DNA from: Pseudomonas sp. IAC-BECa141 | GTDB taxonomy: Bacteria > Pseudomonadota > Gammaproteobacteria > Pseudomonadales > Pseudomonadaceae | Length of the DNA stretch: 64,000 nt | Reading direction: 5' to 3' | NCBI RefSeq assembly: GCF_020544405.1 | Contig: NZ_CP065410.1 | Span: 2,604,001 to 2,668,000, forward strand | In this document: positions 31,965 through 35,602 of the stretch, one piece after another | How the letters are laid out: the number at the start of each line of letters is the position of its first letter | How positions within the stretch are numbered: the first letter of the stretch is position 1 | Notes under the pieces: generated by a model | What the model was told of the DNA's origin: nothing | Databases searched by the model: none | The model's input: the letters and a program-made list of their open reading frames with translations, nothing else | Made by a program: the position numbers and the translations under genes

Positions 31965-32039
31965 TGGCAGGGGCGGCTGGATTCGAACCAACGCATGGCA
32001 GGATCAAAACCTGCTGCCTTACCGCTTGGCGACGCCCCT
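31965..32039 (-). tRNA. tRNA-Gln (anticodon UUG)
   Basis: A 75-nt cloverleaf on the minus strand. The acceptor arm AGGGGCG pairs with CGCCCCT, followed by discriminator G and an encoded CCA. The D arm reads GCCAAGCGGTAAGGC, the anticodon loop TTTTGAT (anticodon TTG) and the T arm GTTGG-TTCGAAT-CCAGC. It is single-copy here. Confidence 0.95.
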
Positions 32040-32571: not shown

Positions 32572-34035
32572 TCAGCTCACCGAACTCGGCATTCCCGCCA
32601 GCAAACCGGTCAGCGTCTTCATGATCGCCTGCTGACGCGCCCGGTCGGTCAGGTGCCGGGCCTCGGCGGCGGCGACATCGGCGTGGCAGTGCGGGCAGAT
32701 CGATTCGTGCGGGTGGATGTATTGCAGGCAGTCGCGGCACAGGGCCAGTTGCGTCGGCAGGCGTCCTTCCTCGGGGGAGGACTGGCCCTGATTGATCCAG
32801 GCGAGCTTGATCACTTGCCCGCTGTCGCTGACGCTGCTGACTTTTTCGCCGGTGTCGATGCGTTCGGTGATCAGGTCAAAACGTCCGACCGCAAACGAGC
32901 GCTGGGCGGCGTCTTCGACTTTGACGATGCGCTCGCGCAAACCCTGTTTTTGCAGTTCCAGGGTTCGGTAATGGCAGTAAGGATTGTTGCCGGGTTTGCC
33001 CAGCAGCGAATGCGACGTCCAGGTGCAGCCGCCCCGGCAGACGTCGTTGTAATAGCAGCTTCGGCAGTAACCCCACAGGTCATCGACCGAACGCAGGCGG
33101 CCGAAGTGCATGCCTTCGCTGTAGTGCCAGATGTCGTGCAGGCTCATGTTGCGCACGTTGCCGCCGGAAAACCCGACGGTCGCCAGTGACGGGCAACCTT
33201 TAACCGTGCCGTCCGCTTCCAGCGCCAGCACGGTCTGGCCGGCCGCGCAGCCGCTCCAGTGCACGCGTTCGTCGCCGAAGCCGCGCCACAGATGTTCGTA
33301 AGGGCCGTAATAACCGATGTTGTTGCCGACGTTCATCAGCAGGCCGCGATCCAGTCCTTCGCGGTACAACCGGGCGAGTAGCGGCATCACTTCCAGCAGC
33401 TTGTACGGCTGGAGCAACAGCTCAGGATGGTCGACGGCGTTGCCCATGGCCACCGTGATCTGGATCTGCCAATGGGTGGCGCCGAGCTCGATGATGGTGT
33501 CCATCAGTTCTGGCAGATCCGGCAACGTGGCCGCGCCGATCTGGGTGTTGACGCTGACGGCCAGCCCTGACGCCTTGGCCCGGCGCAGGGTATCGACAGC
33601 CTTGTCGAACGAGCCGGGTACGTTGCGCACCTTGTCGTGCAGCGGCGCGAGTCCGTCCAGGGAAATGCCGACCCCGTTGAGCCCCGCTTCGACTGCTGCC
33701 TGCATCTTCGCTGGCGTCAGATTGCGCCCGCCGGTCTGGATCGCACAGTACATGCCGTGGTCGTGGATGGCGCGGATCAGTTGCGTCCAGTCCTTGCGCA
33801 GATAGGCTTCGCCGCCGATCAGGGTGATCTCGCGGGTGCCCAGGGCGGCGAGGGAATCGATCACGTCGAGGCATTCGCGGGTGTTGAGTTCATCGGGGCG
33901 CCGATGCCCCGCGCGGGAGCCGCAATGCAGACACTTGAGGTCGCAGGCGAGGGTGATTTCCCAGACCACGTGCACCGGCACGTAGCGTTTGAGATCGGTG
34001 TCGCTGAGGTAGCGGGCAGGGCGGTTGTCTGTCAT
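32572..34035 (-). CDS. radical SAM/SPASM maturase of a GDL-motif peptide system
   Basis: A 487-residue radical SAM enzyme. The SAM-cluster motif is CDLKCLHC (Cys31, Cys35, Cys38). A SPASM-type C-terminal region holds further cysteines (WSGCAAG, KGCPSLA, YCRSCYYNDVCRGGCTW, PYCHYR) for two auxiliary Fe-S clusters. A last C-x2-C / C-x2-C pair (CRDCLQ, CPHCHAD) resembles a zinc ribbon. Enzymes of this kind modify ribosomal peptides. The three upstream genes on the same strand encode proteins that share a GDL motif, the likely substrates. The start at 34035 is chosen from the conserved N-terminus and a GGGAGAT-like site. The chemistry carried out is unknown. Confidence 0.88.
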   Translation of the reverse strand: MTDNRPARYLSDTDLKRYVPVHVVWEITLACDLKCLHCGSRAGHRRPDELNTRECLDVIDSLAALGTREITLIGGEAYLRKDWTQLIRAIHDHGMYCAIQTGGRNLTPAKMQAAVEAGLNGVGISLDGLAPLHDKVRNVPGSFDKAVDTLRRAKASGLAVSVNTQIGAATLPDLPELMDTIIELGATHWQIQITVAMGNAVDHPELLLQPYKLLEVMPLLARLYREGLDRGLLMNVGNNIGYYGPYEHLWRGFGDERVHWSGCAAGQTVLALEADGTVKGCPSLATVGFSGGNVRNMSLHDIWHYSEGMHFGRLRSVDDLWGYCRSCYYNDVCRGGCTWTSHSLLGKPGNNPYCHYRTLELQKQGLRERIVKVEDAAQRSFAVGRFDLITERIDTGEKVSSVSDSGQVIKLAWINQGQSSPEEGRLPTQLALCRDCLQYIHPHESICPHCHADVAAAEARHLTDRARQQAIMKTLTGLLAGMPSSVS

Positions 34036-34099
34036 GGGAGATCCTTGCGCACGGGCCTGTGCGCGGCACGATTGGACTGACCTCGATTGGCTGGAAGAC

Positions 34100-34127
34100 C
34101 GGGGGCGGTCACCCGTGACCGCCCCCG
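34100..34127 (-). promoter_or_regulatory. strong GC hairpin before the maturase gene
   Basis: A 13-bp perfect stem (34100-34112 with 34115-34127) lies between the last substrate-like gene and the maturase. With no T-tract, it probably lowers or stabilises rather than ends the transcript, giving more substrate than enzyme. Confidence 0.6.
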
Positions 34128-34138
34128 GGCCGTACGAC

Positions 34139-34716
34139 TTAGCGCGCTTCCAGTCGCGCGATTTCCGCATTCAGCTGTTCAAGGGCACTGCGCAAGGCAC
34201 CCTCGTGGGCCAGCTGTTGTTCGCCTTGCTGCACCGCGACTTTCAACTGCGCCAGATCACCGCTTTCCTTCGCCGTTTGCACGGCCACGGCGTACAGCGG
34301 CTGGACATGATGCTCGGGCGGAAGAGGCTCGACGCTCGGTGCCTGATGCACGGCGACGTGCCGCACGTCCTGCCACTGGCCGCCGTCGTTGTAGCGGTAA
34401 TCGATAAAACCGCTGGTCCAGTCGTTCAGGATGCCCTTGAGGTGGAAGGTCTGGGCAATCTGACTCAGCGGGCCGCTCGGGCTGCCATCAAGTGTGAGAA
34501 TGATGTAGGTCTCGGTGGATGGCGTCAGCCTGGCCTCGGAGTAGTCGCCCCAGACCCGGGCATGGAAATTCACCGGTGGCCAGGTGCTCTGGAACACGCT
34601 CGCGGTTCCGCTGACTTTTTGCGGACGGTATCGACCACGATATCGAGGGTCAGAACCGGTGCGCCCAGCAGTGAGTTACTGGCGATGAGGCGGGTGTGAA
34701 AAAGTCCGATCGACAT
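34139..34716 (-). CDS. DUF1842/DUF1843-like GDL-motif protein, frameshifted
   Basis: Third candidate substrate of the radical SAM system. The ATG at 34716 (after AAGGAG) begins MSIGLFHTRLIASN, matching the N-terminus of the paralogue at 34756. This frame stops at 34570. From the AAAAAG run (34615-34620) the neighbouring frame continues the homology (VSGTASVFQSTWPPVNFHARVWGDY) to the end. One extra A, or a -1 slip on AAA-AAG, joins them into about 191 residues. The C-terminus has the motif LYAVAVQTAKESGDLAQLK. It may be a real mutation, a sequencing error or recoding. Confidence 0.72.
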
Positions 34717-34755
34717 GATGCTGCTCCTTGTGAAAGTAATGGTTCCATTAGCCGA

Positions 34756-35382
34756 TCAGCGACTTTGCACGCGGCTGATTTCTTTGTTGGCGTCGTCCAC
34801 CGCTTTGCGCAACAGCGGCAGTTGCTCCAGCTGCTGCCTGGCCTGCGCGGACAGGCTTTTCATCTGCGCCAGGTCTCCGCTGGCGATGGCGCCCTGAATC
34901 GGCGCGGCATACAGCGGCAGAACCGGTTTGTGCGGCTCGATCACCGGGCCGGGATTGAACGGCTGAAGCACTTTCGAAGGCACCTCCACCAGATGCGCCG
35001 GCACGTTGTTCAGTTCGTGCCAGCGCTGGCCGTCGAAGTACTCATAGTTGGCCACGCCTTCGCGCCAGTCGGTGCCAACCACCAGGTGGATCTTGAAGTT
35101 GATGATCGAGTTGGAGCCAGGTCCGCCATGGTTGCCCTGGGCGGTGATCAGGATCTTGCTGACACCGGGCTTCATCACCGTCATGTAGGTGTATTCGCCC
35201 CAGACGTCCGAGTCGATGTCGAGCGGCGGATTGGTCGCCTGAGTCACGGCGGCGTTGCCGGTGACATGCTGCTGCGGCGTGGACACCAGCAGGTTCAGCG
35301 CAAGGCTCTGCGCCCCTGGCTGACCCGTACCGATCCGGTAGCTCACCGGGAACAAGCCGACATTTTGCTGAGTAGCTGACAT
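34756..35382 (-). CDS. DUF1842/DUF1843-like GDL-motif protein
   Basis: A 208-residue protein with no signal peptide. Residues ~8-130 form a beta-rich DUF1842-like domain (VGLFPVSYRIGTG, VWGEYTYMTVMKPGVSKILITAQGNHGGPGS, IINFKIHLVVG). The C-terminal ~50 residues are a DUF1843-like helix pair carrying LYAAPIQGAIASGDLAQMK. The same C-terminal motif recurs in the two flanking genes. The start at 35382 follows GGAGG. It is probably a substrate or scaffold for the radical SAM maturase downstream. No enzyme function is visible. Confidence 0.82.
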   Translation of the reverse strand: MSATQQNVGLFPVSYRIGTGQPGAQSLALNLLVSTPQQHVTGNAAVTQATNPPLDIDSDVWGEYTYMTVMKPGVSKILITAQGNHGGPGSNSIINFKIHLVVGTDWREGVANYEYFDGQRWHELNNVPAHLVEVPSKVLQPFNPGPVIEPHKPVLPLYAAPIQGAIASGDLAQMKSLSAQARQQLEQLPLLRKAVDDANKEISRVQSR

Positions 35383-35416
35383 GTTGATTGCCTCCATTGC
35401 AATGTGGGAAATGGCC

Positions 35417-35602
35417 TCAGGGTTTTTCCAGTCTGGAAACTTCTTTGGCCAGGTTTTCGTACGCGGTTTGTAGCTCCTTCGCTTCCGGCTTCGTTGAATC
35501 GCGCTGCTTCAACAAAGTCTTCATCTTCTGCAGATCGCCGCCGGTGATCGCGTTCTGGATGGCGACGCCGTAGGGCGGGATGTTGTGATTTGAACCAGTC
35601 AT
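35417..35602 (-). CDS. 61-residue DUF1843-like GDL-motif peptide
   Basis: A 61-residue protein that is essentially the C-terminal domain of its neighbours standing alone: PPYGVAIQNAITGGDLQKMK, then a charged helix ending in EVSRLEKP. A GAGGAAGG site precedes the ATG. As the shortest member, first in the operon and lacking a leader-like signal, it is the best candidate precursor for the radical SAM enzyme. Cysteine is absent, so a thioether (sactipeptide) product from this chain is unlikely. Confidence 0.8.
   Translation of the reverse strand: MTGSNHNIPPYGVAIQNAITGGDLQKMKTLLKQRDSTKPEAKELQTAYENLAKEVSRLEKP

Follow-up and report, generated by a model that had tools for sequence, protein, structure and literature searches.

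A TIGR03913 radical SAM enzyme and three adjacent DUF1843 proteins in Pseudomonas form a unit that probably excises tyramine from protein backbones

The closest described relatives of the system considered here are the PlpX-type radical S-adenosylmethionine (SAM) enzymes, which belong to the tyramine spliceases. PlpX excises tyramine at X-Tyr-Gly (XYG) sites (PMC10533398, PMC11002830) and is listed as IPR026482 (PMC11002830). As described in PMC10533398, PlpXY turns residue X into a ketoamide with the loss of 135.0757 Da, the natural sites being MYG and LYG, and 27 characterised and 939 predicted spliceases are mentioned there. We analysed a window of 64,000 nucleotides (the whole stretch of DNA under study) from Pseudomonas sp. 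IAC-BECa141 (GCF_020544405.1, contig NZ_CP065410.1, positions 2,604,001 to 2,668,000), in which three proteins with a DUF1843 domain precede a radical SAM/SPASM enzyme of the TIGR03913 family. By analogy with the PlpX-type enzymes, this enzyme is probably splicease-like, excising tyramine (-135.08 Da) at the Pro-Tyr, Leu-Tyr and Leu-Tyr sites of the trio and leaving a ketoamide that is perhaps protease-reactive. The locus would then be a three-substrate protein-modifying unit, in which the tyramine part of one Tyr (C8H9NO) would be cut from each backbone and the ends rejoined, with a reactive ketoamide left behind. The Y-x10-GDL stretch would act as a predicted helix plus turn for recognition and folding, GDL itself staying unmodified, and the DUF1842 barrel present in two of the three proteins would be a carrier. 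We infer this chemistry, the roles of helix and barrel, and a ketoamide meant to react with a protease.

The genes are transcribed from the minus strand in the order 61-aa DUF1843 protein, 213-aa DUF1842-DUF1843 protein, second DUF1842-DUF1843 protein and radical SAM/SPASM enzyme:

35417-35602, minus strand: candidate substrate 1, stand-alone DUF1843 protein of 61 aa; predicted target Pro10-Tyr11-Gly12, Tyr codon 35570-35572
34756-35397, minus strand: candidate substrate 2 (213 aa), DUF1842 beta-barrel, linker and DUF1843; predicted target Leu162-Tyr163-Ala164, Tyr codon 34909-34911
34139-34716 (ATG at 34716), minus strand: candidate substrate 3, DUF1842 plus DUF1843, frame-disrupted; predicted target Leu-Tyr-Ala, Tyr codon 34292-34294
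32572-34035, minus strand: radical SAM/SPASM enzyme of 487 aa, TIGR03913 by profile score
33922-33945, minus strand: CxxxCxxC radical SAM cluster site (C31, C35, C38), invariant across 56 rows
33052-33249, minus strand: SPASM Fe-S region, residues 263-328
32686-32739, minus strand: C-terminal four-Cys, zinc-ribbon-like element (C433, C436, C447, C450), invariant across 56 rows
31965-32039, minus strand: tRNA-Gln (ttg) adjoining the locus

An open reading frame (ORF) reaching 34170 (532 aa) represents an alternative, longer start of the enzyme. The calculated average mass of the unmodified 61-mer, Met included, is 6753.6 Da. Pfam DUF1843 is above its cut-off (23.3) in all three proteins, at 44.5, 49.8 and 62.5 bits, and these are the only three DUF1843 matches in the genome; DUF1842 is above cut-off in two of them, and the spacing from Tyr to the Gly of GDL is 11 in all three. 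A sequence-only reading of this DNA had described three consecutive motif proteins (one of 61 aa and two with DUF1842) followed by a radical SAM/SPASM enzyme on one strand, and the coordinates and the Pfam and TIGR03913 scores agree with that description. The shared tail it noticed is indeed present in all three proteins and equals Pfam DUF1843, but its invariant residue is Tyr, not GDL. The layout of the trio likewise stands, although the third gene is not intact here, its 34 N-terminal residues being off-frame.

The window enzyme matches TIGR03913 over the full length of the model (1-477 of 477) with 1062.2 bits against a cut-off of 591.75, and we found no difference that would set it apart; it is a plain member, and its three adjacent motif proteins fit the short name rad_SAM_trio. 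The names of the family ('GDL motif peptide-associated', formerly 'Y-X(10)_GDL-associated') already carry the Y-x10-GDL motif, which is therefore no discovery in itself. The next-best profile is TIGR04103 (nif11-class peptide radical SAM maturase 3), which we take to be the family of PlpX, at 431 bits, followed by one at 160. Conversely, TIGR03913 gives 414 and 424 bits for two cyanobacterial enzymes of TIGR04103, and other profiles give them at most 164. The window enzyme is 40-44% identical to ten enzymes from a cyanobacterial TIGR04103 search (nine above cut-off, one at 721 of 725 bits), 37% identical to a gammaproteobacterial TIGR04103-like enzyme (locus L112, 4057-5986; 703 bits on TIGR04103, just under cut-off), and 24-28% identical to six other radical SAM rows. 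TIGR03913 and TIGR04103 have 114 near-invariant alignment columns in common, of which 45 are lacking in six outgroup rows, and a tree places all rows of both together on one side of a branch from the outgroup (support 100/99). On sequence, the two are mutually the nearest families by far. The four-Cys C-terminal extension of the window enzyme was not seen in the ten TIGR04103 C-termini inspected, and a zf-ChsH2 match at this element lies below cut-off (16.6 vs 23.2 bits).

The enzyme and the DUF1843 proteins travel together. Of 199 Pseudomonas genomes, 15 have TIGR03913 above cut-off, and exactly these 15 also have DUF1843 above cut-off, in three adjacent copies each (Fisher p = 7e-23, uncorrected for relatedness); two further genomes (G008 and G064) have one weak, sub-cut-off DUF1843 match each. 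Among 150 genomes from the family of a Burkholderia relative, both occur in the same four (three copies in three genomes, one copy in one), and among 274 Gammaproteobacteria both are above cut-off in a single genome, G000. We further collected 228 genome stretches encoding relatives of the enzyme, kept the best 80 as loci (43 of them Pseudomonas), and searched within 6 kb of the enzyme with a DUF1843 model refined over successive rounds of DUF1843 hits. Each of the 80 loci has one or more DUF1843-like domains, 229 in total and all on the enzyme strand. A stand-alone PYG protein followed by two DUF1842-fused LY[A/G] proteins was the order in 53 loci, the commonest arrangements being PYG > LYA > LYA (41), PYG > LYG > LYA (8) and PYG > LYG > LYG (4), and no further gene was seen to recur widely near these 80 enzymes. 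That the enzyme and the DUF1843 proteins are one unit, co-occurring beyond chance, is supported. The link between them that the sequence-only reading had proposed is thus upheld by the genome survey it suggested, and co-occurrence and adjacency also favour its view of the trio as likely substrates.

Some loci depart from the common layout. Two loci of the same Calothrix assembly (L077 and L084) combine a TIGR03913-type enzyme and DUF1843 protein with a canonical TIGR04103 enzyme and nif11-type precursors. Undibacterium and a Burkholderiales metagenome-assembled genome (L080, L082, L083) have tandem DUF1843 units: one protein preceding the enzyme contains three, and more follow the enzyme, giving five domains per locus. 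In Chromobacterium (L050, L051, L053, P0191), a DUF1842 protein has an N-terminal PPYG site in addition to a C-terminal LYA or MYA, an arrangement that resembles a fusion with the small substrate.

Within DUF1843, Tyr is the constant residue and GDL the variable one. In an alignment of 208 distinct domains, including the three of the window (39 clusters under 62% identity), Tyr is invariant (208/208); it is preceded by Leu (130), Pro (70) or Met (8), followed by Gly (105), Ala (101) or Met (2), and position +4 is invariably I, V, L or M. All 229 domains detected in the 80 loci read [L/P/M]-Tyr-[G/A/M], and Pro-Tyr is always paired with Gly at +1 (PYG 73, PYA 0). Since the search model rewards Tyr and would miss Tyr-less tails, we also made a count independent of it: every one of the 117 DUF1842 domains encoded in the 80 loci has a tail with [L/P/M]-Y-[G/A/M], and a relaxed DUF1843 search gave five extra hits, every one with Tyr. 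Cys is present in only 7 of the 208 aligned domains, and a Cys thioether is unlikely, as the sequence-only reading had argued. A modification at or around GDL, as the sequence-only reading had proposed, draws on the frequency of that motif (G 198, D 160 and L 167 of 208; G[D/N] at +11 in 105 of the 117 DUF1842 tails) and on its place in the family name. GDL is nevertheless more variable than Tyr, and some Chromobacterium proteins beside the enzyme retain Tyr although GD is eroded.

Genomes that lack the enzyme separate the two parts of the motif further. DUF1842 matches occur in 27 of the 199 Pseudomonas genomes: the 15 with the maturase, two with single weak matches (G066 and G192; 21-22 bits), and ten with a DUF1842 pair and with TIGR03913 and DUF1843 both under their cut-offs. 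All ten were examined, and no matching radical SAM ORF was found in their DUF1842-pair stretches. The tail of the first paralogue can be aligned residue for residue with DUF1843 in each of the ten, with Leu-His replacing Leu-Tyr; at the place of GDL, nine have GD and one QD. In all ten, the Tyr segment is gone from the second paralogue. In a DUF1842 tree of 59 rows, a motif expression recovers Tyr for 35 of the 39 rows linked to a maturase and His for 10 of the 20 others, and the four misses are Chromobacterium rows in which Tyr is present and GD fails the expression. Of all the evidence, this double dissociation of Tyr and maturase speaks most strongly for Tyr, and not GDL, as the enzyme's requirement. 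With GD mostly retained and Tyr gone where the enzyme is missing, we regard modification around GDL as very improbable; judged from these sequences, the likely target is instead the Tyr lying 11 residues upstream.

The same tracking of enzyme presence by the key tail residue speaks against a second alternative, in which DUF1843 would serve assembly or docking while the enzyme acts on something else. PMC10994174 offers that idea some support, in that paralogues within one operon suggested self-assembly; its own results indicate a probable monomer without higher-order assembly, although no maturase is mentioned in the parts of it consulted. We consider such a role very improbable. The protein studied there, the DUF1842 protein BPSS0212 (PDB 8t0b, 8t1m, 8t1n), has an unresolved tail, perhaps proteolysed at its start (PMC10994174). 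It was made in E. coli, again with no maturase mentioned in the parts consulted, and differs in this from the maturase-linked proteins of the window. In our model of the 213-aa protein, the linker has a predicted local distance difference test (pLDDT) score of about 51-57, and Tyr163 immediately precedes helix 164-173.

If Tyr is the target, the sequence around it bears on the reaction. A small LPRS-W protein adjoins the enzyme in nine of the ten TIGR04103 loci (eight by expression, L097 by model; none found in L100), and by the expression used, eight of the ten contain ten precursors that combine a nif11-type leader with a YG core, mostly of the form P-[L/M]-Y-G-[V/I]. This setting is consistent with the PlpX family, as PlpY accompanies PlpX. 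Separately, the neighbour of the L112 enzyme is a protein of 160 aa that has the QPVYG repeat four times and lacks an obvious nif11 leader. We trained a site model on 18 distinct cores that reads the flanks only, at positions -3 to -1 and +2 to +4. It distinguished 118 distinct DUF1843 site segments from 429 other Tyr of the same ORFs with an area under the curve of 0.962, from 333 enzyme Tyr with 0.953, and from 71 Y-[G/A] controls with 0.948. Of 199 ORFs, many closely related to one another, 190 have the DUF1843 Tyr as their top-ranked Tyr, and the DUF1843 segments score well under the cores themselves (median 1.1 vs 17.6). A reverse model built from DUF1843 sites picks the YG core in 10 of 10 precursors, and a Burkholderia DUF1843 reads RPLYGAPI where the published splice tag reads RPLYGLPI. 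The same Tyr could instead undergo another radical SAM reaction, such as a cross-link to a neighbour, epimerisation or oxidation, with a small mass change and no tyramine loss. Invariance of Tyr would suit that as well; the match of the site flanks to TIGR04103 precursor cores and the 40-44% identity of the enzymes argue against it, and we hold it unlikely, though less so than the alternatives above.

Tyramine excision as the preferred reading must be set against several points that weigh on the other side. The window enzyme, at 431 bits, is under the curated TIGR04103 cut-off of 725, so that TIGR04103 is the nearest other family and not one to which it belongs. Placing PlpX in TIGR04103 is our own assumption, the review PMC11002830 giving IPR026482 only. 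The tree draws TIGR04103 nested within TIGR03913 rows, but because the outgroup is saturated (branch lengths of 10), its root and this nesting are unreliable. The ten maturase-less genomes fall in two lineages at most, and therefore reflect one or two events, not ten. The cores behind the site model come from related cyanobacteria. X-Tyr-Gly occurs once among the window proteins, as PYG, the other two sites being LYA; one of three proteins thus has a strict XYG, with Ala at +1 in about half of all sites and Pro before Tyr in the 61-mer. Profile searches found no nif11 or nitrile hydratase-like leader family in the trio (only DUF1842 and DUF1843 above cut-off in Pfam). A model from eight PlpY-like ORFs detected no such protein in any of the 80 loci (best E 0.084, on the other strand). 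As a control, this model found the untrained L097 protein at 2.4e-16 and none in L100 or L112, so a divergent PlpY-like partner could be missed. The DUF1843 helices are modelled at pLDDT 57-73 only, and no mass shift is known for the TIGR03913 family. Finally, PMC10533398 reports that the LYG tag was not accepted at two FtsZ sites tried, two longer or moved GYG forms being accepted; a short motif is therefore insufficient, and context matters.

Taken against PlpXY and TIGR04103, its nearest enzyme family, the window family has in common a Tyr-centred site with similar flanks. It differs in its substrates, which are DUF1842/DUF1843 proteins rather than nif11-type leader peptides, in allowing Ala at +1, in having no PlpY found, and in its additional C-terminal four-Cys element.

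The host, a soil Pseudomonas, has a 6.22-Mb genome in a single contig and by its maturase lies near P. sputi and P. koreensis. In the third DUF1842/DUF1843 gene, the first 34 residues (34615-34716) are off-frame from the remainder, with the change of frame near 34615, and the C-terminal part is readable from a GTG at 34597. The gene is a single open frame in all 41 Pseudomonas relatives examined (L004-L044), so that either an intact third substrate was lost in this strain or the genome assembly is in error. Among 13 loci scanned, only that of the closest relative also has the tRNA-Gln beside it.

In published expression data, the homologous operon of C. subtsugae responds to high density with strong induction, the log2 values for the trio being 4.9, 5.1 and 5.3 (PMC12114271). 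In stationary B. thailandensis, BTH_II2182-2184 (DUF1842/DUF1842/DUF1843) belong to the transcripts with the largest listed increases (8.0, 7.7 and 7.5; PMC12322963). Spliceotides, in turn, are cited as protease inhibitors (PMC11117315). Given this citation and the high-density induction, an inhibitor role for the trio is a fair guess by analogy. Far more tentatively, and with doubt about the whole, we suggest that the trio, produced at high cell density, might act on proteases as protein-borne inhibitors that bind covalently and reversibly. The ketoamide would sit at the exposed linker-helix junction, at a place suited to protease cleavage, and there would be two P1 specificities, Pro for the small protein and Leu or Met for those with a barrel. 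The enzyme's four-Cys tail would replace PlpY, so that one enzyme alone splices folded proteins.

Tyramine-excision chemistry itself is already known from other bacteria. The sequence-only reading knew of no described product: none was found for the TIGR03913 family in the literature searched, but the nearest family does have published chemistry. We found no link of TIGR03913 to splicing in that literature, which did not span all key splicease work, and we lean towards the family already being among the characterised or predicted spliceases. As far as we have checked, what appears to be new is the double dissociation of Tyr and maturase, the PYG/LY order of the trio, the combination of a missing PlpY with a four-Cys tail that is invariant, and the disruption of the third gene in this genome.

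If tyramine is excised as proposed, a family known by its motif name alone would gain an exact predicted site, product and mass, and backbone editing would extend to stable, folded proteins of common soil bacteria and of related organisms. An enzyme with no partner or leader requirement would then also be handy for protein labelling. The maturase-less Pseudomonas proteins provide a natural control for the purpose of the modification.

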